NCBI GenBank assembly: GCA_026707745.1
Contig: JAPOWG010000105.1
Span: 1-64,000 of the forward strand
DNA: 64,000 nt
DNA from: Chloroflexota bacterium
Lineage (GTDB): Bacteria; Chloroflexota; Anaerolineae; Aggregatilineales; Phototrophicaceae
Reading direction: 5' to 3'
Shown here: positions 4,119 to 43,738 of the stretch, in pieces
How the letters are laid out: each line of letters begins with the position of its first letter
Position numbering within the stretch: position 1 is the stretch's first letter
Position numbers and translations under genes: made by a program
Notes under the pieces: model-generated
Database searches by the model: none
The model's input: the letters and a program-made list of their open reading frames with translations, nothing else
What the model was told of the DNA's origin: nothing

Positions 4119-4139
4119 GGGCGACCAGGTTGGTCGCCC
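4119..4139. repeat. REP-like palindrome (unit 1)
   Basis: GGGCGACCA and TGGTCGCCC form a perfect 9-bp inverted repeat with a 3-nt loop between the racemase and amidohydrolase genes. It belongs to a family of similar intergenic palindromes in this window (see findings). Confidence 0.75.
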
Positions 4140-4158
4140 CTGCGGTTCCAGTATTATC

Positions 4159-11909: not shown

Positions 11910-13532
11910 ATGAAAACCATGTCATTCGACTTCAAATCCCGCCGTTCCATGATCAGCGCTCGGCGGGGCATGGTCGGCGCTAGCAGCCCGCTGGCCGCGC
12001 AAGCCGGTCTCAATATCCTGCGTCAGGGCGGCAACGCGGCTGACGCCGCGGTCGCCACTTCCGCCATGATGAACGTGATGGATCCGGGCTCCTGCGGCGT
12101 CGGCGGCGATTGTTTCGCGCTCTTCTTTGACGCGACGACCAAAGAGGTTACGGCCTTAAATGGCAGCGGACGAGCGCCACAAGCTTTGACCTTGGATGCC
12201 GCGCGCGCGCTGGGCTGGGAAAAGATGAATCCCAGCCACGCCCATTCGGTAACGGTGCCCGGCGCTGTGCGCGGATGGCACGATCTGCTGCAGCGGCACG
12301 GTTCCATGACGCTGGCTGAGGTGCTGGAAGACGCCATTCACTACGCCGACGAGGGTTTTCCGCTGGCGCCGGTTGTAGGTTACCGCTGGGAACGATCGGG
12401 CGCCTTCTTGCGTAACGCGGCGAATGCCGAAGAGTATCTGCCCAATGGAGAGACACCGAAGGCGGGGCAGGTGATTCGCTTGCCCGGGCTTGCAAACACG
12501 CTACGCATGATAGCCGAGGGCGGACCTGATGCCTTCTACAGCGGCCCCGTCGCCGATGCCATCGTGACCTCGCTGGGTGAGCAGGGCGGCCTCATGTCGC
12601 TCGACGACCTGAAAAATCACCATTCCACTTGGGACGAGCCGATCTCCACCGATTATCGTCGCGTTACGGTCTTGGAATGCCCACCCAATGGACAGGGCTT
12701 GACGGCCTTGATCGCGCTCAACATCGCCGAGCATTTCGACCTGGCATCGCTGCCCTGGTATTCACCGGAGCGCATCCATTTGATGGTCGAGTGCATGCGC
12801 CTGGCCTGGGCGGACGCCCACGAATATATCGCCGATATGAGTCAGGCGGACGTGCCGCTGGAGGGGCTGCTGAGTGTGGATTACGCGGCTGAACGAGCGG
12901 CGCGGATCCAACCCTATTATGCTATCGATCCCCCGCCGAGTCCTGGCGAATTGCCCGGCGGCTCGGACACGATCTATCTCAGCGTTGTCGATGGCGAGGG
13001 CAATGCCTGTTCTTTCATTAAGAGCTTGTATATGGGCTTTGGCGTAGGCATCGTCGCCGAAGGAACGGGCGTCTGGCTGCAGAATCGCGGGGCTGGCTTC
13101 TCGCTGATTCCTGGCCATCGCAATTGCTTGGCGCCGGGCAAACGTCCTTACCACACCATCATACCGGGTATGGCGCTCAAGGACGGCGCGCTCTGGGCCA
13201 GCTTCGGCGTCATGGGCGGCTTCATGCAGCCGCAGGGCCACTTCCAGGTCATCAGCGCCCTGGTTGATGACGATCTCAATCCGCAGGAGGCGCTCAATCG
13301 ACCGCGCTGGTATGTCGACCGAGGCGATCCGGGTGGCAATCTGCTGATCGAAGAAGGCACGCCTTTCAAGACGATGGCGGATCTCGCAGAGCGCGGTCAT
13401 CGTATTCAACCGGAATCGGGTCTGGGGCGGGGCAATTTCGGGCGTGGACAGGTCATCCGCTACGATGCGGAAACGGGCGTGATGCACGGCGGCAGCGAGC
13501 CCCGCGCCGATGGGCAGATCGCGGCCTTTTAG
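11910..13532 (+). CDS. Gamma-glutamyltransferase family protein
   Basis: This 540-residue Ntn-hydrolase precursor is of the gamma-glutamyltranspeptidase family, which cleaves gamma-glutamyl bonds as in glutathione. The large-subunit motif GGNAADAAVATSAMMNVMDPG and GVGGDCFALFF are clear. The expected autoprocessing site and nucleophile is T354 in GGSDTIYLSVVDGEGN; the usual TTH after the cut is TIY here, as in YwrD-like homologues. There is no signal peptide, so a cytoplasmic role is likelier than periplasmic glutathione salvage. It stands alone, divergent from the sugar transporter operon. An alternative start is the ATG at 11919. Confidence 0.93.
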   Translation: MKTMSFDFKSRRSMISARRGMVGASSPLAAQAGLNILRQGGNAADAAVATSAMMNVMDPGSCGVGGDCFALFFDATTKEVTALNGSGRAPQALTLDAARALGWEKMNPSHAHSVTVPGAVRGWHDLLQRHGSMTLAEVLEDAIHYADEGFPLAPVVGYRWERSGAFLRNAANAEEYLPNGETPKAGQVIRLPGLANTLRMIAEGGPDAFYSGPVADAIVTSLGEQGGLMSLDDLKNHHSTWDEPISTDYRRVTVLECPPNGQGLTALIALNIAEHFDLASLPWYSPERIHLMVECMRLAWADAHEYIADMSQADVPLEGLLSVDYAAERAARIQPYYAIDPPPSPGELPGGSDTIYLSVVDGEGNACSFIKSLYMGFGVGIVAEGTGVWLQNRGAGFSLIPGHRNCLAPGKRPYHTIIPGMALKDGALWASFGVMGGFMQPQGHFQVISALVDDDLNPQEALNRPRWYVDRGDPGGNLLIEEGTPFKTMADLAERGHRIQPESGLGRGNFGRGQVIRYDAETGVMHGGSEPRADGQIAAF

Positions 13533-13611: not shown

Positions 13612-15375
13612 ATGAAGTTTTTTGAGGCCCTGCGCGGTCTGCCCTATCAATGGCTGTTGCCCATATGTTTCTTTTGCCTTGGTTTGATCTACATTTATGC
13701 CGCCCCGCATTTTGAAGCCTCCGACTCTATCGCGCATGTGGGCATGATTAAGTGGATCGCCGACCACGATGGCGCGCTTCCAGTCCAGTCGACCAATCAC
13801 TCTCAGCTATATCGGCAGCAGGCCAGCCAACCGCCGCTCTACTACTTCATGATGGCCGCGATCTGGACAGCGCTGGATACCAGCGATTTCGACGAGTTCT
13901 TCCGCCTAAGCCCCTTTGCCATCGTTGGCGACCCGATGCGCCTGGGCAACCGCAATCGTATCTTTTATCGACAGCCCTATCCGCCCAATTTGCATCAGGG
14001 TACGTCCCTGACGCTGTATGTCATTCGGCTGGTGACGCTGGGCATGGGGACGGTGGCGGTCGCCGCGGTCTATCAGTCCGCCCGCACTGTGATGCCGCGG
14101 CGCGTGGCTTTCGCTGCGCTGGCCTGCGCCTTGACCGCCTTCAATCCTCAATTCATCTTTATCAGCGCCTCCGTCAGCAACGACGGTCTCGTTATCATGC
14201 TGTCGGCGCTCATCACCTGGCAAACGCTCGTGATGCTGCGTGAAGGCTTTCACACGCGACGCAGCCTGGTTCTGGCGCTTCTCGTTGCGCTGGCGTCGCT
14301 AGCCAAACTGAGCGGCCTCGTATTTGCCGCCTTGGTCATCCTGGCCGGAATATGGATACTCATAAGCACCCGGGATCGACGCGGCTTTCTCGTTTTGCTG
14401 GGCGCGGCGCTGGTCATTTGGCTGGTCATTGCCGGATGGTGGTTCCTGCGAAACTTGGCGCTCTATCAGGAGCCTTTTGGCACGGCGGCGATGCTCGATT
14501 ATGTCGGGCGGCGGCGAACCACGATTCCACAACTGCTGGCGCAGGAGTTTCAGGGCTTGCGCATCAGCTTCTGGGGGCTGTTTGGCGCCTTCAGTATTCT
14601 AACGCAAGACATCCACTATCAACTGATGGATGCGCTGACCTTGGTTAGCGCTGCCGGTTTTCTCGTCTTCGTCGCAAAAAACCGTCGTGACAGGTTTATC
14701 CTTACCGCTATCTGTTTTCTCGTCATCATTCTTGCTGTCGCATGCCTGACCCTGGTCTGGTGGAGTACCCAAACGACAGCGAGCACAGGACGACTGCTCT
14801 TTCCATACATCACCGCGATCAGCCTGCTGATGGCCATGGGGCTGAGGGCCCTGCGCATTCCAGCGCTTCTGGTCGGTTTGCCCATGCTCGTCTTCAGCAT
14901 AGCCGCGCCCTTCCTATTTATCATCCCGAACTATGACCATCCGCCGCAGATTGATGAACTGCCAGCTTCCGCGGGGCAAACCTTCGCCCGTTGGGACGAG
15001 ATCACGTTGATCGGCTACGAGTTGCGACCGCCTGAGCGGGTGGCATACGGCCTGGAAATTCCTGTCACGCTCTATTGGCGGGCACAGAGGGAATCGACCG
15101 TGACCAGGGCGCTCTTCATCAGCCTGGTCGATTCGGAAGGCAGTCCTGTGACCAGGCTGGAAACTTTTCCCGGTTGGGGTACGCTGCCCACGCGCTGGTG
15201 GCAGGCGAACACGATCTATCGCGATGATTACATTCTGCAGATCCCGGATGACGCCGCCGCGCCGGCGGCACTGCACATCGGCTGGTATCCTTTCCCCGGT
15301 GGCGGCGACATGCCGCCGATACTCGAATCCGGCGAGGAAGCGGCGGTTTATTCGATTGAGCTCCAAATCCCCTAA
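13612..15375 (+). CDS. Multi-pass membrane protein, GT-C glycosyltransferase-like (GT39/DUF2142-like)
   Basis: This 587-residue protein has about eleven hydrophobic helices, starting with LPICFFCLGLIYIYAAPHF, and a soluble C-terminal beta-rich domain (about 455-587). The loop after helix 1 carries SDSIAHVGMIKWIADHDG and QQASQPPLYYFMM, the acidic-loop plus QPPLYY pattern of GT-C polyprenyl-phosphate-sugar-dependent transferases. This suggests transfer of a sugar to a lipid or protein outside the membrane. A close paralogue, 732 residues, is at 34690-36888 and extends further at the C-terminus. The gene stands between gamma-glutamyltransferase and the sugar transporter cluster with no obvious operon partner. 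Substrate unknown. Confidence 0.82.
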   Translation: MKFFEALRGLPYQWLLPICFFCLGLIYIYAAPHFEASDSIAHVGMIKWIADHDGALPVQSTNHSQLYRQQASQPPLYYFMMAAIWTALDTSDFDEFFRLSPFAIVGDPMRLGNRNRIFYRQPYPPNLHQGTSLTLYVIRLVTLGMGTVAVAAVYQSARTVMPRRVAFAALACALTAFNPQFIFISASVSNDGLVIMLSALITWQTLVMLREGFHTRRSLVLALLVALASLAKLSGLVFAALVILAGIWILISTRDRRGFLVLLGAALVIWLVIAGWWFLRNLALYQEPFGTAAMLDYVGRRRTTIPQLLAQEFQGLRISFWGLFGAFSILTQDIHYQLMDALTLVSAAGFLVFVAKNRRDRFILTAICFLVIILAVACLTLVWWSTQTTASTGRLLFPYITAISLLMAMGLRALRIPALLVGLPMLVFSIAAPFLFIIPNYDHPPQIDELPASAGQTFARWDEITLIGYELRPPERVAYGLEIPVTLYWRAQRESTVTRALFISLVDSEGSPVTRLETFPGWGTLPTRWWQANTIYRDDYILQIPDDAAAPAALHIGWYPFPGGGDMPPILESGEEAAVYSIELQIP

Positions 15376-15585: not shown

Positions 15586-15646
15586 AAAGGAGGTATTATT
15601 GGCCAGCCTAAATCTGTTAACGACCCGATTCTATCGACTCTATTAG
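15586..15646 (+). other. Possible translated leader (15-codon uORF with strong SD)
   Basis: A perfect SD (AAAGGAGG, 15586-15593) is followed after 5 nt by TTG and a 15-codon frame (15599-15646) ending in TAG, which is also the first part of the SD (TAGGAGG) of the solute-binding protein gene at 15656. The short peptide (LASLNLLTTRFYRLY) has two CGA arginine codons. The arrangement would couple translation of the leader to that of the transporter gene. There is no experimental support, and the SD could be a remnant. Confidence 0.35.
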
Positions 15647-15655
15647 GAGGAAATA

Positions 15656-16951
15656 ATGAAAGGCATCAAGCTTCTTTTCGCGATCGCAGTTTTGGTCATG
15701 GCGTTTGCGCCCGTTGGCGCGCAAGATGTCACCACCGTCACTATGTGGTTCAGCGAGGGCTCCACGCTGGATTGCTGGGGTCCCCTCATGCTCGAGTTCA
15801 ACGACATCGATCCTTCGCTCCAATTGGAAATCGTGCCGCAGGCTGATACCTGGAATGTCACCCGCACCGCTGTCGCCGGCGGCGGCGGCCCGGACATTGT
15901 TCGTACGCCCGGACCTTCCTATGCCTACGAATTGGCGGAAGCCGGCTTGATCGCGCCCATGGACGCTTTCGCCGATGAAATGGGTTGGGGCGACTTCTTC
16001 TTCGATTGGGCGCTTGATCTGGGCTTGGTCAATGGCCAACTCTACAGCCTTGCCGACGAGTTGGAAACGCTGTTGCTCTATTACAATACGGACGTCTTCG
16101 AGGCAAATGGCTGGACGCCCCCCGACACCATGGAAGAACTCAACGCTCTGGGCGAAGAGGTGGCTGCGGCCGGTTACGTCGTGTTCTCGCATGGCAACGC
16201 CAGCTGGCGCGGCACGAACGAATGGTTCGTCGGCGAATATATGACCCAACTCGCCGGTCCTCACAACGTCTACAAGGCGCTGACCGGGCAACTCTCCTGG
16301 ACGGACGAGAGCATGGTGCAAGCCGTTGAACAGCTAGACGCGCATATGCAGGCTGGTTGGTACGGCGGCGGAATTGACCTCTACTTCACCAACGAGGGCA
16401 CGACGCGGAGGGCGATGCTGGCAGATGGCACAGCGGCCATGAATATCGAGGGCAGTTGGGCCATCCGCGGCTTGGAAGAGTATCACGGCGAGTCGGGCCA
16501 AGGTTGGGACTGGGTGCCCGTGCCCAGCCATGACGGCACCGATTACTTCACCATCGGTATGGGCAATACCAGTTCGATCAATGCTAACAGCCCCCATCCC
16601 GAAGCGGCTGCGAAATTCCTAAACTGGTACTTCTCGCCCGCAACGCAAGGCAAGATGCTAACGTCCTGCCGCAAGGGACCGGCGCCCGTCGCTATTTCAG
16701 AGGATGTCATGGGCGATCTTGACCCGCGGGTCGCCAGGGTCTATGCCGAGTTGTCGGACGCCTCTGCCAATGACCGCTACGGTTACACCACCTGGACCTT
16801 CTGGTCGCCTAGCGGCTTCAACTATATCATCGAAGAAGTTGAACGCGTCTGGGTAGGTGAAATCTCCGTAATGGAATACCTGGAGGGCTTGGATACGCTC
16901 ATGACCGCAGAGCTCGAAGCCGGGAACCTTCCACCGATTCCATCCCGGTAA
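15656..16951 (+). CDS. Sugar ABC transporter substrate-binding protein, family 1
   Basis: This 431-residue extracytoplasmic receptor has a Sec signal (MKGIKLLFAIAVLVMAFAPVGA, cut before QDV). The mature protein shows the SBP_bac_1 pattern VTMWFSEGSTLDCWGPLMLEF, GGGGPDIVRTPG, LETLLLYYNTDVFEANGW and AAAKFLNWYFSP. SD AGGAGG lies 6 nt upstream of the ATG. It begins a tight plus-strand cluster with two permeases, two ADP-ribosylglycohydrolases and a PfkB kinase, which implies that the ligand is a glycoside or nucleoside-like sugar processed by those enzymes. That ligand is inferred from context only. Confidence 0.94.
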   Translation: MKGIKLLFAIAVLVMAFAPVGAQDVTTVTMWFSEGSTLDCWGPLMLEFNDIDPSLQLEIVPQADTWNVTRTAVAGGGGPDIVRTPGPSYAYELAEAGLIAPMDAFADEMGWGDFFFDWALDLGLVNGQLYSLADELETLLLYYNTDVFEANGWTPPDTMEELNALGEEVAAAGYVVFSHGNASWRGTNEWFVGEYMTQLAGPHNVYKALTGQLSWTDESMVQAVEQLDAHMQAGWYGGGIDLYFTNEGTTRRAMLADGTAAMNIEGSWAIRGLEEYHGESGQGWDWVPVPSHDGTDYFTIGMGNTSSINANSPHPEAAAKFLNWYFSPATQGKMLTSCRKGPAPVAISEDVMGDLDPRVARVYAELSDASANDRYGYTTWTFWSPSGFNYIIEEVERVWVGEISVMEYLEGLDTLMTAELEAGNLPPIPSR

Positions 16952-17032
16952 CATGATGTGCTTTGGCGCTGGTTGTCGTCACGGCGGCCGGCGCCAGCCC
17001 GCCCCTCCCGCCGCACAGGAAAGGCGCATATT

Positions 17033-17983
17033 ATGGCCGTCTATGTACAGAAGAAACCGACGTCGATTTTCGAAAAAGTCAATGATGAGACCTGGCGTCG
17101 CAAGTTCTTGCGCAATGTCCTCATCCCCTGGATCTTCATCGCGCCGCTGCTAATCATCCACATACTTGTCGTCGCTGTACCGGCTGTGCAGGGCATCTAC
17201 ATGTCTTTGACCGATTGGACCGGGATCGGCATGAATGTGAATTTCATCGGACTGGACAATTATCATAGATTGTTTTTTGAAGACGAGACATTTGCCAAAG
17301 CGCTGGGCAACAATATCGCTTGGATGGCTTTCTTCTTGACCGTGCCCTTTATTTTGGCGCTATTCTGCGCCACTCAGTTGGCGCAAGTCAAGCGCGGCGG
17401 CATGATTTATCGCAGCATCCTCTTCATTCCCTACGTGCTGGCGAGTGTGGTCACCACGACAATCTGGAAGAATCTATTGAACCCACGGCAGGGTATCGGC
17501 GCCGCCCTGGATAATCTGCTTGGATTGGAAGACGTCTTCGGCGTCGCTTTTCTCGGGCGGCGGGAGAGCGCCTTGATGTCCATCGCTTTCATTGACAATT
17601 GGCATTTCTGGGGCTTCTTGATGATCCTGTTTCTGGCGGCGATGCAGTCCATCCCGCCCGTGCTTTACGATGCCGCCAAGATCGACGGCGCCAACCGCTG
17701 GGACGAATTCCGCCATGTCACCTTGCCCGGCATTCGGCCAGTCATGCTCTTCATGTACATGATGGTGGCTATCTGGTCATTCCTGGCTTTTGACTACATC
17801 TTCCTCTTGACGCAAGGCGGACCCGCCGGCGCTTCAGAAGTAATCGCCACACAGCTCTACAAGAACGCCTTTTTCCGCTTCCAGGCTGGTTATGGCGCCG
17901 CGCAGGGCGTCGTCATCAGCATTTTCGCCGGGTTCATCATCTTGATATTCGTCACGCTGCGGCGGAGAGGATGGGATATATGA
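17033..17983 (+). CDS. Sugar ABC transporter permease (MalF-type)
   Basis: This protein of about 316 residues has six transmembrane helices and an EAA loop (VLYDAAKIDGANRWDEFRHV). The track begins at an upstream ATA-proximal codon (16958), but the ATG at 17033 has SD AGGAAAGG and starts the natural N-terminus MAVYVQKKPTSIFEK; the upstream 25 codons are proline/arginine-rich and unlike the family. The next gene overlaps its stop by ATGA, showing translational coupling. It forms the channel with the following permease. Confidence 0.94.
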   Translation: MAVYVQKKPTSIFEKVNDETWRRKFLRNVLIPWIFIAPLLIIHILVVAVPAVQGIYMSLTDWTGIGMNVNFIGLDNYHRLFFEDETFAKALGNNIAWMAFFLTVPFILALFCATQLAQVKRGGMIYRSILFIPYVLASVVTTTIWKNLLNPRQGIGAALDNLLGLEDVFGVAFLGRRESALMSIAFIDNWHFWGFLMILFLAAMQSIPPVLYDAAKIDGANRWDEFRHVTLPGIRPVMLFMYMMVAIWSFLAFDYIFLLTQGGPAGASEVIATQLYKNAFFRFQAGYGAAQGVVISIFAGFIILIFVTLRRRGWDI

Positions 17984-18867
17984 CCGCCATCGGCAAAGTT
18001 TCGCTTCGGGACACAGTTCTACAGCGAGGGAGAAGCAAAGAACGCAGCCGGCTGCTGGTCTTCAACCATACGGTGCTGTTGCTTTTGACCGCCTTCGCCG
18101 TCATTCCGCTATTGGTGTTGGCCTTCAACTCGGTCAAGACCAATCTCGAAATCGGTCAAAACCCGCTGGGCCCGCCGGTGAATGTCGTCGCCGAAAACTT
18201 CCCAAATGCCTGGGAAAGGGGCAACTTTGCCGTTACGATGGGCAACAGCGTGATTTATGTCGTAGCCACGATCGCGGCCGAGTTGGTCTTGGGTGGACTT
18301 GCCGCCTACGCCCTGGCGCGCAAAAGACCGCCCGGCTCCGACCTGCTCATGCTCTACTTCCTGGTCGCCTCAACCATCCCGCTCTGGATGTATATCGTCC
18401 CGCTCTTCGTCCAAATCAACGCCTTGAAGCGGCTTGGCGTGGATGCCAGGATCCTGCTCATCATCGTCTATGTCGCCGGCAACGCGCCCTTGACCATCTT
18501 CTTGCTGCGCTCCTACATGATCGACTTGCCCACCGAACTTGAAGACGCCGCCCGCGTCGACGGCGCCAACGAATTCCAGGTGCTGACACGCATCGTGCTT
18601 CCCCTGACCAAACCCGGCTTCCTGACTGTTGGCTTGGTTGTGGGCTTGGGTGTCTGGAACGAGTTCTTGCTCGCGCTGACCTTCATCCACGATCCGAATC
18701 AATTCCCGGTCACCACAAGTTTCTACAAATTCGTCGACCGCTTCGACCGCGATTGGTCATTAACCAGCGCCGGCGCCATCATAATCATCTTCCCGGTGAT
18801 GGTGCTGTTTTTGGCGCTGCAACGCCAGTTCATCGAGGGTTTGGCAGAAGGCGGCATCAAAACCTAA
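17980..18867 (+). CDS. Carbohydrate ABC transporter permease (MalG-type)
   Basis: This membrane protein of about 295 residues has six helices (first: TVLLLLTAFAVIPLLVLAF) and the EAA loop LEDAARVDGANEFQVLTRIVLPL. The ATG at 17980 overlaps the stop of the upstream permease (ATGA) and is preceded by GGAGAGGA; the track start at 17971 is three codons earlier. With its partner it forms a CUT1-type sugar channel. The C-terminus FIEGLAEGGIKT is the usual MalG-type end. No ATPase gene follows; instead a REP-like palindrome and the ADP-ribosylglycohydrolase genes do. Confidence 0.94.
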   Translation: MTAIGKVSLRDTVLQRGRSKERSRLLVFNHTVLLLLTAFAVIPLLVLAFNSVKTNLEIGQNPLGPPVNVVAENFPNAWERGNFAVTMGNSVIYVVATIAAELVLGGLAAYALARKRPPGSDLLMLYFLVASTIPLWMYIVPLFVQINALKRLGVDARILLIIVYVAGNAPLTIFLLRSYMIDLPTELEDAARVDGANEFQVLTRIVLPLTKPGFLTVGLVVGLGVWNEFLLALTFIHDPNQFPVTTSFYKFVDRFDRDWSLTSAGAIIIIFPVMVLFLALQRQFIEGLAEGGIKT

Positions 18868-18941
18868 GCGGACTTCTTGTGCGGCGCCACTCAACGCGCC
18901 ATCCGGTCCGTAGATGCAAATTAATCATGCAAAAACTGTAG

Positions 18942-18962
18942 GGGCGACTCTGTGAGTCGCCC
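18942..18962. repeat. REP-like palindrome (unit 3)
   Basis: GGGCGACT and AGTCGCCC are separated by 5 nt and preceded by CTGTAG. The unit lies between the permease and the first ADP-ribosylglycohydrolase and could act as a processing or attenuation hairpin in the cluster mRNA. Confidence 0.75.
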
Positions 18963-18976
18963 AATTCAATAACCGT

Positions 18977-20125
18977 ATGGGAATACAAATGACCCCAATT
19001 GAAGACTCTCGTTTGTATGACAAAGTGTGTGGCTGTCTCTACGGCGGCGCTGTCGGCGATGCCATAGGCGCGCCGGCGGAAGGGCGCATGCCGGCGGATA
19101 TTCAGGCCCGCTACGGCTACATCACCGATTTTGTCGAAGGCTGGGACGGACCGTCCGATATTGGCAAGGGCGACGGTCGCTACACCGACGACAGTCACAT
19201 GGTGCAATTGCTCAGCCGCTGCTATATCGAAGAAGGCGATCACCTGGATGCCTATTCCTTCGCCCAACGAATTGTCCCGCTGATCGCTGACGAAGATCGC
19301 TGGATCCCGGAACGCGGCTGCAACATGAAATTGGTCGACCGCCTCTTTTACCCGGAAAAATGGCTGCTGATGCGTCTGCGACTGGCCAATGCCGAACCGC
19401 GTCGAGGAGGCATCGGCAATATGGTCAACTGCGGTGCGGCCATGTACGCGGCCCCCGTCGGCATCGTCAACGCCGGCGACCCTGAAAATGCCTATCGCGA
19501 AGCGGTTGACGTTTTCAGCGCGCACCAGCAGAGCTTCGGCCTGGAAGCCGCGGCTGTGATGGCGACGGCGGTTGCGGAGGCTTTCAAGCCGTCGGCTACG
19601 GTGGATTCGATCATTGATGCCGTATTGGGGCTGGCAAAGGAAGGCACAGGGAAAGCAATCGAATCTGTGGTCGAGACCGCGGGTAAGCATAGCGACTGGA
19701 AAGAAGCCATCCATCCCTTGCGCGACGCCATGCGCCCCTACGACACCGCCGCCGAGAATTTTAGAGAGCGAGGACGGCCCGGCACCAATCACTGGATGCC
19801 CAGCCGCGAGCACAGCATTGAAGAGGTCCCGATTGCCCTCGCTTTCCTGGTGGTCACCGGCGGAGACTTCGAAGGCAGCGTATTTGGGGGCGTCAACTAC
19901 GGACGCGACAACGATTCCATCGCTGGTATGGCGGGCGCGATCGCCGGGGCGCTGCATGGCGCCGGGGCGATCCGCGGGGACTGGATGGATCAGATCAACA
20001 GCGCCAATCGCGTCGATCTGCGGCCGATCGCGCGGGACTTGACCAACTTGACGGTCAAGCTGCAGAAGCGTCAGATGGACGAGGCGCAGTCAAGAAATGC
20101 GGATTTCAATGATTTGCTCAATTGA
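18977..20125 (+). CDS. ADP-ribosylglycohydrolase family protein (short form)
   Basis: This 382-residue protein has the all-helical ADP-ribosylglycohydrolase (ARH/DraG) fold. Metal-binding motifs are GGAVGDAIGAPAEG (about 16-29), GRYTDDSHMVQLL (near 72) and, late, NYGRDNDSIAGMAGAIAGAL, matching the two Mg-coordinating acidic clusters. Members cleave N- or O-glycosidic bonds to ADP-ribose or to simpler ribosyl groups. The adjacent sugar transporter, second family member and PfkB kinase point to a catabolic substrate and not a regulatory ADP-ribosylated protein. An ATG at 18989 is an alternative start. Confidence 0.92.
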   Translation: MGIQMTPIEDSRLYDKVCGCLYGGAVGDAIGAPAEGRMPADIQARYGYITDFVEGWDGPSDIGKGDGRYTDDSHMVQLLSRCYIEEGDHLDAYSFAQRIVPLIADEDRWIPERGCNMKLVDRLFYPEKWLLMRLRLANAEPRRGGIGNMVNCGAAMYAAPVGIVNAGDPENAYREAVDVFSAHQQSFGLEAAAVMATAVAEAFKPSATVDSIIDAVLGLAKEGTGKAIESVVETAGKHSDWKEAIHPLRDAMRPYDTAAENFRERGRPGTNHWMPSREHSIEEVPIALAFLVVTGGDFEGSVFGGVNYGRDNDSIAGMAGAIAGALHGAGAIRGDWMDQINSANRVDLRPIARDLTNLTVKLQKRQMDEAQSRNADFNDLLN

Positions 20126-20137
20126 GGAGAATAATTG

Positions 20138-22312
20138 ATGAGTTTACCAAATGACTATCTGGAACGGGTTTACGCCGGCGTACTTGGCAAGTTGATCGGC
20201 GTCTATCTGGGTCGCCCATTTGAAGGCTGGTCCTATGAAGCTATCACGGAGCACCTCGGCGAAATCAACTACTACGTGCACGACCGACTCAACGTTCCAT
20301 TGATCGTCACCGACGATGATATTTCTGGCACCTTCACTTTTGTCCGCGCGCTGGAAGATTACGCCTTCAATCGCGATCTTAGTGCCGCGCAGATCGGACA
20401 GACCTGGCTCAATTACCTGGTCGAAGAACAGACAGTGCTGTGGTGGGGCGGCATGGGCAATTCCACCGAACACACGGCCTATTTGCGGCTGAAACAAGGG
20501 TACGAACCGCCGCTCAGCGGCTCGGTGGAGCTTAACGGCAAGGTCGTCGCCGAGCAGATTGGCGCGCAGATCTTCATCGACGGCTGGGCGATGGTCGCGC
20601 CGGGGGATCCCGAATTCGCCGCCGACCTAGCTAGGCGCGCCGCTTCCGTCAGCCATGGTGGCGAAGCGATCTACGGCGCGCAGTGCCTGGCGGCGATGGA
20701 AGCGGCTGCCTTTGTCGAGTCCGATATCAACAAACTCATTGATATCGGCCTTTCCGTGATTCCGGACGATTCCATCATCTATTATATGATCAACGATATC
20801 CGCGAATGGCACGCCAAAGAACCCGATTGGCGGAAAGGTCGCGAGTTGCTGGCGGAGCGCTATGGCTACCATATCTACGGCGGCAACTGCCACATGATTC
20901 CCAATCACGGGCTGATCGTTTTCTCGATGCTCTATGGCGATGACGACTTCCAGCGCACGCTGATGATCGTCAATACCTGTGGCTGGGATACCGACTGCAA
21001 TTCGGGCAATGTCGGCTGTCTGATGGGTATCAAGGACGGCTTGGCGGGCCTGGAAACCGGACCTGATTACCGTGGGCCGGTGGCGGACCGCATGTATATT
21101 CCCACGGCCGACGGGGGCAATGCAATAACTGATGCCGCCACACAAACCGTACGCCTGGTGAATATGGGACGCGCGCTCCAGGACATGGCGCCGATCGCGC
21201 CCAAAGACGGCGCCCGTTATCACTTTGATCTACCCGGCTCGCTGCAAGGCTTCATGAATGATGAGGCCATCGACTCGCGCGATGTCTGCGCGGTCAGCAA
21301 CGTACAAGCCCCCGATCTGAGCTTAAACGGCGAGCGCCTGCTGGCGCTGGATTACGCCGGTTTGGCGCCCGGCCGCGTCGGACGCGTCGAGACGGCCACC
21401 TTTGTGCCCTCCCTTGAAGTCAATAAACACTTCGAGGGTCCAGGCTATAGCCTGATGGCCAGCCCCAGGCTCTCCCCGGGTCAGACGATCCGAGCGCGCG
21501 TCCTTGCGGCGGACGAGAATGACACTGAGGTTGAGGTCTCGCTCTATGTCCAGCATTACGACCGCGACGACAATCTCGTCGTGCTGGCCGGATCGGGAGA
21601 TAGTTTTTCCGCCGGGCAGTCGGCTGAACTCGTCTGGCAAGTGCCGGATCTGGAAGGCTATCCCATCGCCAAGGTCGGTGTTCAGATCGGCGGGCAAGGC
21701 GGCGCCAGCGGTCGAGTATATCTCGATTGGCTGACTTGGGACGGCGCGCCCAACGTACGCCTGAAACGCCCGCACGCGCGGAATTTCGCCCGCTGGGACC
21801 GCAAGCTGGGCGGCATGATGTGGAAGCGCGCCTGGGTTAACGGCCTCGACGCTGCAAAGGGTAAAATGGTATTCCTCGACTTTTATCCGGAAACCTACCG
21901 TCTGATCCAGAACGAGGGGCGCGGACTGATGATGACCGGCTGCCGCGATTGGAGCGACTATCAGGTCAGCGCCAAGTTGACGCCCCATATGTGCAAGGCC
22001 GGCGGGCTGGGCGCGCGCGTCCAGGGCATGAAGCGCCACTACGCGCTGCTCTGCAACGAAGAGACTACGCGCCTGGTTTCTACCTGCGAAGGTGTGGACA
22101 CCGTTCTTGCGCAAGCCGACGAAGGCTGGACCTTTGGAAACGAACATCAACTCACGCTCAAGGTCGAAGGCAATATCTTGGCCGGCTACGTTGACGGGAA
22201 GCTACGCGTCAAGGCCGAAGATCCGGAGGCGCGCTTCAGCGGCGGCGGCATCGCGCTCATCGCGGAAGAGGGCAGGATCGGCTGCGAAGATGTCGAAGTG
22301 CGGCCGGTTTAG
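20138..22312 (+). CDS. ADP-ribosylglycohydrolase family protein with C-terminal beta-sandwich domains
   Basis: This protein of about 724 residues is a longer relative of its neighbour. Residues about 1-330 carry the ARH fold with VTDDDISGTF near 65 and TCGWDTDCNSGNVGC near 285 as the two metal clusters. Residues about 340-560 and 570-724 look like beta-rich domains; the last (WSDYQVSAKLTPHMCKAGG to GGIALIAEEG) resembles a concanavalin/LamG-type sandwich that may bind carbohydrate. The track start is TTG at 20135; the ATG three bases later has SD GAGGAGA and is preferred. No signal peptide is seen. It follows the short ARH gene by 12 bp. Confidence 0.9.
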   Translation: MSLPNDYLERVYAGVLGKLIGVYLGRPFEGWSYEAITEHLGEINYYVHDRLNVPLIVTDDDISGTFTFVRALEDYAFNRDLSAAQIGQTWLNYLVEEQTVLWWGGMGNSTEHTAYLRLKQGYEPPLSGSVELNGKVVAEQIGAQIFIDGWAMVAPGDPEFAADLARRAASVSHGGEAIYGAQCLAAMEAAAFVESDINKLIDIGLSVIPDDSIIYYMINDIREWHAKEPDWRKGRELLAERYGYHIYGGNCHMIPNHGLIVFSMLYGDDDFQRTLMIVNTCGWDTDCNSGNVGCLMGIKDGLAGLETGPDYRGPVADRMYIPTADGGNAITDAATQTVRLVNMGRALQDMAPIAPKDGARYHFDLPGSLQGFMNDEAIDSRDVCAVSNVQAPDLSLNGERLLALDYAGLAPGRVGRVETATFVPSLEVNKHFEGPGYSLMASPRLSPGQTIRARVLAADENDTEVEVSLYVQHYDRDDNLVVLAGSGDSFSAGQSAELVWQVPDLEGYPIAKVGVQIGGQGGASGRVYLDWLTWDGAPNVRLKRPHARNFARWDRKLGGMMWKRAWVNGLDAAKGKMVFLDFYPETYRLIQNEGRGLMMTGCRDWSDYQVSAKLTPHMCKAGGLGARVQGMKRHYALLCNEETTRLVSTCEGVDTVLAQADEGWTFGNEHQLTLKVEGNILAGYVDGKLRVKAEDPEARFSGGGIALIAEEGRIGCEDVEVRPV

Positions 22313-22357
22313 TCGCGATTGCGCATAGAAATCCTGTAGAAACTAAGCACTCTGGCA

Positions 22358-22401
22358 GGGGCGACCGACCCGCTGTGTCTACGCGCGGCGCTGGGTCGCC
22401 C
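22358..22401. repeat. REP-like palindrome with insert (unit 4)
   Basis: GGGCGACC and GGTCGCCC flank an insert containing TGTCTACGCGCGGCGCTG. The reverse complement of this insert resembles that of unit 2. Confidence 0.6.
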
Positions 22402-22417
22402 TTGAAGTATCGAATCC

Positions 22418-23311
22418 ATGACACATGCACGCGTCCTTTGCTACGGCGAAATCGACCTCGATATCTATCTCAAGTTAGACCGTCTTCCGACATTGAACCG
22501 CGCCGGCAACACCCGGGACGAATTTGAAAATGTGGGCGGGGCTGCGGCGAATAGCGCCATGTGGTTGGCGAATTGGGGCATCGACACGCGGTTGTTGGGG
22601 CACGATCTCGGCGACGACCGCGCCGGCGATACGGTCCGGGGCTTGCTTGGCGCGCTGGAACATCTTGATACGACTTATGTCGCTTGCCACGCCGGTTATC
22701 GCAGTCCGCGCTGCCAATGTCTGGTCACGCCGGATGGCGAACGCAGCTTCATCATGCACTGGCTTGACGAGTTGCGCATCACCGACCTGGAATCGCAGAT
22801 GCTGCGCGGCATCGAGTGGCTCAACCTCGATATGTCGGGCCCCCCGGAACCGCGCTTGCGAGCCGCTCGACTGGCTGTCGAGCGCAACATTCCTGTGCTG
22901 ATCAATGACATTTACGCGGCGGATCACGCGCTGCTGCCCTATGTCGATGTGCTGGTCATTTCGGCGTCGATCGCACGGGGCAGGATGCCGGGCAGCGAGC
23001 CTTTGGCGCTCGCGCAGGAGCTACAGGAAACGGGCAATTGCCATGTCATCATCACTGACGCGGCGGCGCCGGTCACCCTGCTGCTGAGAGAGGGCGAAGT
23101 CCGCCAGATCCAGCCACCGGCAGTCACCGCCGTTGACACCACCGGCGCCGGCGATACATTCAAGGCGGGCTTGCTCTATGGCTTGCTGAAGGACCTGCCG
23201 CTGCCCCAAGCGGCGCGTTGGGGTTGCGCCGCCGCCAGTCTCATGTGCCAGTTCCCCGGCACCACCCGCCATCTGGCCGATCTCGATGCCGTCGCGGCAT
23301 ACCTGCCGTGA
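22418..23311 (+). CDS. PfkB-family carbohydrate kinase
   Basis: This 297-residue protein is of the ribokinase/PfkB family. The substrate-side motif GGAAANSAMWLANWG lies near 40-54 and the ATP-site/anion-hole motif DTTGAGDTFKAGLLYGLL near 240-257 (catalytic Asp in GAGD). Family members phosphorylate sugars or nucleosides at a primary hydroxyl. It ends the ABC/ARH cluster and is expected to phosphorylate the sugar released by the glycohydrolases, probably ribose or a nucleoside; that identity is inference. There is no clear SD, and unit 4 of the REP-like repeat lies just upstream. Confidence 0.92.
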   Translation: MTHARVLCYGEIDLDIYLKLDRLPTLNRAGNTRDEFENVGGAAANSAMWLANWGIDTRLLGHDLGDDRAGDTVRGLLGALEHLDTTYVACHAGYRSPRCQCLVTPDGERSFIMHWLDELRITDLESQMLRGIEWLNLDMSGPPEPRLRAARLAVERNIPVLINDIYAADHALLPYVDVLVISASIARGRMPGSEPLALAQELQETGNCHVIITDAAAPVTLLLREGEVRQIQPPAVTAVDTTGAGDTFKAGLLYGLLKDLPLPQAARWGCAAASLMCQFPGTTRHLADLDAVAAYLP

Positions 23312-43642: not shown

Positions 43643-43738
43643 CGGGAGCGCATGGGAGTCGAACCCACCATCGCCTGCTAGGCGCAACCGATCACCGGTT
43701 TTGAAGACCGGGGCATCCACCGGGACACATCCACTCCC
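43643..43738 (-). tRNA. selC: tRNA-Sec (selenocysteine, anticodon TCA)
   Basis: The minus strand reads as a long tRNA of about 96 nt. The anticodon arm is CCGGT-CTTCAAA-ACCGG with anticodon TCA, decoding UGA. The D arm is extended (GTGTCC-CGGT-GGATGC), a long variable arm is present (CGCCT-AGC-AGGCG), and the T arm is GTGGG-TTCGACT-CCCAT. The acceptor stem starts GGGAGTG and pairs with CGCTCCC; the eighth pair is a G-G mismatch, and the discriminator is G. These are the standard bacterial tRNA-Sec features, and the length separates it from tRNA-Ser. CCA is not encoded. Its presence implies that UGA is recoded in this genome; selA, selB and selD are not in the window. Confidence 0.93.

Follow-up and report, generated by a model that had tools for sequence, protein, structure and literature searches.

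What do two proteins of the ADP-ribosylglycohydrolase (ARH) family do in an operon that also encodes a sugar importer and a sugar kinase? ARH proteins are annotated almost automatically as removers of ADP-ribose, and a sequence-only reading of a 64,000-nucleotide stretch of Chloroflexota DNA (positions 1 to 64,000 of contig JAPOWG010000105.1, assembly GCA_026707745.1; hereafter the window) proposed that the cluster of six genes at 15586-23311 imports a ribosylated compound, cleaves it inside the cell and phosphorylates the product. The genes encode, in order, a solute-binding protein (SBP), permeases of the MalF and MalG types, a short ARH protein (ARH-S), a long ARH protein (ARH-L) and a PfkB kinase. 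We find that the order is conserved, that ARH-L carries a CBM66-like domain, and that motifs of the ADP-ribose site are rewritten. The answer that we favour, tentatively and at somewhat less than an even chance, is that ARH-L is an intracellular, metal-dependent ARH-fold glycosidase whose substrate is an imported small glycoside, and the cluster a cytoplasmic glycoside-utilisation operon.

Conservation of the gene order

The sequence-only reading had named a gene order not conserved in related genomes as a finding that would refute its proposal; the order is conserved. Scans that covered 151 genomes from the order, and GTDB species genomes, supplied the relatives of ARH-L; the nearest, in Chloroflexota metagenome-assembled genomes (MAGs), are 94-96% identical. 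Genus-wide the order is SBP-MalF-MalG-(ARH-S)-ARH-L-PfkB, ARH-S being optional: where the interval from MalG to ARH-L is visible, 7 of 28 relatives have it there. ARH-L and an orthologous PfkB gene are adjacent (gaps of at most ~1.1 kb, coordinates compared by hand) in 28 of the 30 genus genomes that have both; in the remaining two (G079 and G101) both genes stand at contig ends. Its recurrence in some 30 further genomes puts the gene order beyond chance.

Beyond the genus, in loci whose ARH-L is 60-65% identical, the arrangement is LacI-SBP-MalF-MalG-ARH-L without PfkB (L163-L167, L080 and L072, the last a Trueperaceae MAG), and an alphaproteobacterial MAG (L097) has SBP-MalF-MalG-ARH-L followed by an aldo/keto reductase gene. 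Sugar-uptake operons are usually laid out as LacI-SBP-MalF-MalG-enzyme. Among 51 ARH-L proteins placed in a tree, those linked to PfkB (three representatives) form one clade (100/100).

Domain architecture of ARH-L

ARH-L (20135/20138-22312, + strand; PF03747; 725 amino acids (aa) counted from the TTG at 20135) was modelled with AlphaFold2 from a 51-row alignment (pLDDT 94.1, pTM 0.94): the model has two beta-sandwiches besides an all-helical ARH domain. The ARH domain (residues 15-307; 20177..21055, +) is identified both by the PF03747 profile – the two ARH proteins clear its cut-off of 26.2 bits with 152.7 and 182.4 – and by Foldseek, which aligns it with ARH3, MJ1187 and DraG. The first sandwich (~residues 385-545; 21287..21769, +), delimited by the secondary structure of the model, is of uncertain identity; Foldseek matches to galectin or to tandem CBM22 were set aside for their large root-mean-square deviation (rmsd).

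The second sandwich (~residues 575-725; 21857..22309, +) is CBM66-like. Foldseek matches it to the CBM66 of Bacillus subtilis levanase (4azz, 4b1l, 4b1m; rmsd 1.7 over 151 columns), the CBM66 matches having TM-scores of 0.73-0.77 on the target and rmsd of 1.6-1.9, and the 51-row sequence profile independently matches the same CBM66 (E 1e-6). The similarity was found with this profile and the predicted fold; a search with the single ARH-L sequence against solved structures found nothing. What the domain shares with the levanase module is thus profile and fold: identity is 18-19%, and in ARH-L the module is attached to a probably cytoplasmic ARH enzyme. The C-terminal sandwich that had been noticed on the second ARH protein is present, then, but as two sandwiches of which the last is CBM66-like.

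Active sites of the two ARH proteins

ARH-S (18977..20125, +; 382 aa; PF03747) is modelled as an ARH fold only (pLDDT 86); Foldseek targets for the two proteins include MJ1187, ARH3 and DraG. In ARH3, two Mg ions are held by Thr76, Asp77, Asp78, Asp314, Asp316 and Thr317 (PMC8141533), and the enzyme requires a cis 2'',3''-diol on the ribose and acts selectively on alpha-1'' links (PMC7050489). The metal ligands of ARH-S are complete: TDD (70-72) and DxDS (311-314), with Ser in place of Thr317. The metal aspartates and the Glu of the Glu-flap (E30) are likewise retained in 51 of 51 ARH-L proteins; the Thr317 position is Cys (C288) in all 51, and the canonical DxD[ST] letters are lost. The same Cys occurs in ARH paralogs on two other contigs of the genome (C69 and C12).

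A second change affects the NGAAMR segment, which we take to contact the phosphates. It is rewritten in all 51 ARH-L homologs: where YegU of Escherichia coli and an ARH protein on contig C45 of the same genome have a GAAMR-type segment, ARH-L reads QIGAQIF and the subclade of the window's ARH-S reads NCGAAMY. The canonical form is absent from both window proteins (CGAAMY in ARH-S, IGAQIF in ARH-L) and is kept by the lead ARH-S of most sister operons (described below). Scores of ARH-S with the NCBIfam models for DraG (49.8 against a cut-off of 337.05) and for ADP-ribosylarginine hydrolase (Tri1; 54.6 against 490) are low, and no NCBIfam model matches ARH-L. Judged from these residues, the catalytic centre is probably alive, while the part of the site that holds the rest of the substrate has probably changed. 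Compared with the ADP-ribosyl hydrolases ARH3, DraG and ARH1, the window proteins share the fold, the metal aspartates and the Glu-flap Glu, but are 14-21% identical in structural alignment and have an altered NGAAMR segment; ARH-L differs further by its Cys at the Thr317 position and its extra sandwich domains.

The importer

The SBP (15656..16951, +; 431 aa; PF13416/PF01547, SBP_bac_8/1) is followed by a MalF/UgpA-type permease (17033..17983, +; PF00528, BPD_transp_1; best NCBIfam model UgpA) and a MalG/UgpE-type permease (17971/17980-18867, +; PF00528; GlcU/MalG/UgpE-like, best NCBIfam model archaeal GlcU). An SBP_bac family protein with two BPD_transp_1 permeases is the composition of a CUT1 importer, and CUT1 transporters are of the di/oligosaccharide or glycoside type. 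The start of the SBP gene is preceded by AGGAGG, and the nearest solved relatives of its product are sugar-binding proteins; judged by eye, the SBP carries a signal peptide and ARH-S and ARH-L do not. The ABC sugar transporter announced by the sequence-only reading is therefore there as SBP and permeases, but the cluster holds no gene for an ATP-binding subunit. Three MalK-type (OB_MalK) ATPases encoded on other contigs of the genome are candidates for the importer. With CUT1 operons of the MalEFG/UgpBAE type the cluster shares the SBP and MalF/MalG pair, LacI (in relatives) and a MalK-type ATPase encoded elsewhere; it differs in that the hydrolase is an ARH-fold protein rather than a classical glycoside hydrolase. 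At several loci (L039, L041, L043, L047, L058 and L060) a tandem pair of binding-protein genes precedes the permeases; the window has one.

The kinase

PfkB (22418..23311, +; 297 aa) is a ribokinase-family sugar kinase by profile (PF00294, 121.5 bits against a cut-off of 25.8) and by its DTTGAGD motif. No specific NCBIfam kinase model reaches its cut-off: the best scores, from ribose-1-phosphate kinase and ribokinase, lie far below (71.1 against 299.65 bits for ribokinase). Among solved structures ribokinase is the nearest relative, with sulfofructose kinase and ketohexokinase also near. Orthologs beside ARH-L keep strand and adjacency down to 54-67% kinase identity. Among the loci examined outside the genus no PfkB was seen beside ARH-L: the kinase is a lineage-specific addition, its linkage confined to the genus. 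In G058 the site holds gamma-glutamyltransferase (gGT), PfkB and acyl-CoA ligase genes without the SBP/permease/ARH block.

Other ARH genes in the genome and the yegTUV operon

The genome has ten PF03747 loci. On contig C45 (L111:3150-11636) a YegU-like ARH gene lies with PfkB, an IU nucleoside hydrolase and, nearby, BPD_transp_2 permeases, the gene content of a nucleoside-type cluster; for this reason a riboside reading is better matched to C45 than to the window operon. An ARH-L paralog (56%) on contig C43 has ABC permeases, xylose-isomerase-like and Gfo/Idh genes and a GH32 as neighbours, and the ARH gene of contig C12 is near another GH32, so that two ARH paralogs of this genome are next to or near genes of this fructan/sucrose type (L108:4746-8342, L112:2069-6938). 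ARH-L copies thus keep carbohydrate company. Contig C69 (L109:7861-13708) has four tandem ARH-family genes (434-482 aa) near Gfo/Idh oxidoreductase genes.

The claim that no described pathway combines these genes holds only in part: E. coli yegTUV (regulator YegW/GgaR) is a transporter-ARH-PfkB operon, there too with no assigned function. It has an MFS symporter where the window has a CUT1 ABC importer, and a single ARH protein with no extra domains. Identity of YegU to ARH-S is 26%, and its match to ARH-L is marginal (E 0.005); the C45 protein is a clear YegU relative (32%, full length). The window operon is not of the yegTUV type: the YegU-type ARH and the nucleoside-type transporter sit on C45 instead. 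A parallel with the ribose locus of Bacteroides thetaiotaomicron is not used, as no ARH gene there is documented in the literature searched.

A sister operon with an ATP-citrate-lyase-like pair

A sister operon occurs at 17 loci (L143-L153, L156-L160, L162) in 11 genera and four families of the order. It begins with LacI and ARH-S; the SBP, MalF and MalG genes follow in an order that varies, at some loci with one or two additional ARH genes, and ARH-L comes next. These loci were fetched because short and long ARH matches lay close together; since selection used it, the co-occurrence of ARH-S and ARH-L is not independent evidence, while the transporter, regulator and lyase genes are independent of the selection. 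Directly after ARH-L, in 14 of the 14 loci where the contig continues (nine genera), stands a gene for an ATP-grasp protein whose citrate-binding match is weak, followed, where the contig continues further, by a CoA-binding/CoA-ligase/citryl-CoA-lyase fusion. From these domains the pair is a predicted two-subunit ATP-citrate-lyase-like enzyme.

Sister ARH-L proteins are 33-37% identical to that of the window and form a deeply separate clade in the 51-protein tree. The two operons share the transporter type and the combination of a short ARH with a long ARH of two-sandwich length; the sister operon has the ATP-citrate-lyase-like pair where the window operon has PfkB. In the window genome no ATP-citrate lyase was found; the matches were an SCS-alpha-like protein and, separately, a weak one to the citrate-synthase region. 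A literature search outside which most subscription journals lay found no paper on an operon of ARH, ABC transporter and PfkB, none on ARH with ATP-citrate lyase, and no description of the ARH-L architecture, its CUT1/LacI setting or the lyase-bearing sister operon.

What the operon may do

If the cluster is a glycoside-utilisation operon, then the SBP and MalF/MalG, powered by a MalK-type ATPase encoded elsewhere, would import a small glycoside or oligosaccharide; ARH-L, as a binuclear-metal enzyme, would hydrolyse a glycosidic linkage, probably one adjoining a sugar with a cis-diol; ARH-S, in the genomes that have it, would cleave a second or modified linkage; and in the genus PfkB would phosphorylate the ribose- or fructose-like monosaccharide so released. 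We favour a small glycoside because of the CBM66-like domain, the rewritten motifs of the ADP-ribose site and the separate nucleoside-type cluster. The scheme of import, internal cleavage and phosphorylation put forward earlier fits the conserved order and the signal peptide, which is on the SBP only; it is reasonable for the genus, to which the kinase step is confined.

Several observations weigh against a glycoside operon. In L053 and L057 the transporter has diverged (SBP 37-38%, permeases 48-50% identity) though ARH-L is 81-82% identical, and ARH-L relatives in many other phyla lack a neighbouring transporter. The ends of fructans are the known ligands of CBM66 members, with xanthan in one case (PMC11002231); as the ligands of CBM66-type folds vary between members, the module names no ligand for ARH-L. 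The reason for such a module on a cytoplasmic enzyme is unclear, and simple use of a glycoside leaves the ATP-citrate-lyase-like partner of the sister operon unexplained.

The foremost alternative, which we consider rather unlikely, is riboside salvage: the ABC transporter would take in a ribosylated or nucleoside-like compound, ribose would be released by the ARH proteins, and PfkB would be a ribokinase. The demand of the ARH enzymes studied for the cis 2'',3''-diol of ribose, and their preference for alpha-1'' links, are in its favour, as are the parallel gene set of yegTUV and a kinase whose top family scores (albeit far below cut-off) and nearest solved relative are of the ribose type. Yet the same genome already has a nucleoside-type cluster with a YegU-like ARH, the transporter is of the CUT1 rather than the BPD_transp_2 type found there, ARH-L combines a CBM66-like module with loss of NGAAMR and DxD[ST], and no PfkB accompanies ARH-L outside the genus. 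As the substrate, a glycoside in the broader sense is slightly more probable than the ribosylated compound of the sequence-only reading.

It is unlikely, too, that PfkB adjoins the other genes without sharing their function and that the functional unit is the transporter and ARH protein(s) only – a possibility compatible with the glycoside operon except for the latter's last step. Its confinement to the genus, its persistence in G058 without the ABC/ARH block and the 105-bp, repeat-bearing gap that separates it from ARH-L suggest as much; the strand and adjacency kept in 28 of 30 genus genomes, across considerable kinase divergence, argue the other way. Highly improbable is that ADP-ribosylated protein is the substrate of either or both ARH proteins, or that either or both serve as structural or regulatory subunits without catalytic activity: characterised ARH proteins do strip ADP-ribose from proteins, ARH-like subunits unrelated to catalysis occur in solved complexes (8xks, 6sga), and a metal ligand is Cys in all ARH-L, but the linkage to a sugar importer and LacI, the invariant metal aspartates, the low DraG and Tri1 scores of ARH-S, the lack of any NCBIfam match for ARH-L and the absence of a recognised ADP-ribosyltransferase among the neighbours examined all speak against it.

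A wider claim, possible but doubtful, is that ARH-L founds a family of intracellular, metal-dependent ARH-fold glycosidases with a CBM66-like domain in CUT1 operons (LacI-linked in several lineages), in Chloroflexota and single Deinococcota and Pseudomonadota MAGs. In the sister operon, on this view, a related enzyme would work together with an ATP-citrate-lyase-like complex, which would imply a catabolic pathway not yet described. The conservation of an operon that joins a transporter to ARH proteins, one of them bearing a CBM66-like module, and that is distinct from the nucleoside-type cluster, points to an overlooked carbohydrate-active branch of the ARH fold. If confirmed, many environmental 'ADP-ribosylglycohydrolase' genes (ten in the window genome alone) would need re-annotation, and uptake of the operon's compound by Chloroflexota would become testable.

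Operon layout, repeats and neighbouring genes

Open reading frames and family profiles bear out six plus-strand genes of the families first named. For the MalF-type permease the ATG at 17033 is the more likely start (GTG 16958 being the alternative), which gives a spacing of ~81 bp from the SBP gene. The permease genes overlap with an ATGA at 17980-17983, and ARH-S and ARH-L are 9-12 bp apart, with GAGGAG upstream of ARH-L. The short spacing and ATGA coupling described earlier hold in part: the ATGA junction is the only one in the cluster, and two gaps are long, 109 bp between MalG and ARH-S and 105 bp between ARH-L and PfkB.

Both long gaps hold the palindrome GGGGCGAC...GTCGCCC. The repeat pattern, AGGGGCGAC...GTCGCCC, is dispersed genome-wide (163 exact matches, against 0 for a reversed-pattern control), with two copies inside the operon: pattern matches, to which no strand is assigned, lie at 18940..18962 in the 109-bp gap, at 22357..22401 in the 105-bp gap and, elsewhere in the window, at 4119-4141. 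Because both gaps hold this dispersed palindrome, they look like repeat insertions into a once tighter operon. Predicted promoters and terminators within the operon showed no clear excess over shuffles, and PADLOC matched none of the six proteins to a defence system.

Directly upstream of the SBP gene, a 587-aa protein (13612-15375) without a match in Pfam, NCBIfam or PDB is conserved at 87-92% in the five nearest relatives only. The gGT gene (11910-13532) stays upstream of the operon block in many genus members, most of which have another CUT1 permease set between the two. Downstream of PfkB, many genus members have genes of 447 and 377 aa, which resemble hisD and hisC by eye only. Finally, ARAGORN calls a tRNA-Sec (anticodon tca) at 43643-43738, so that selenocysteine use by the organism is worth a look.

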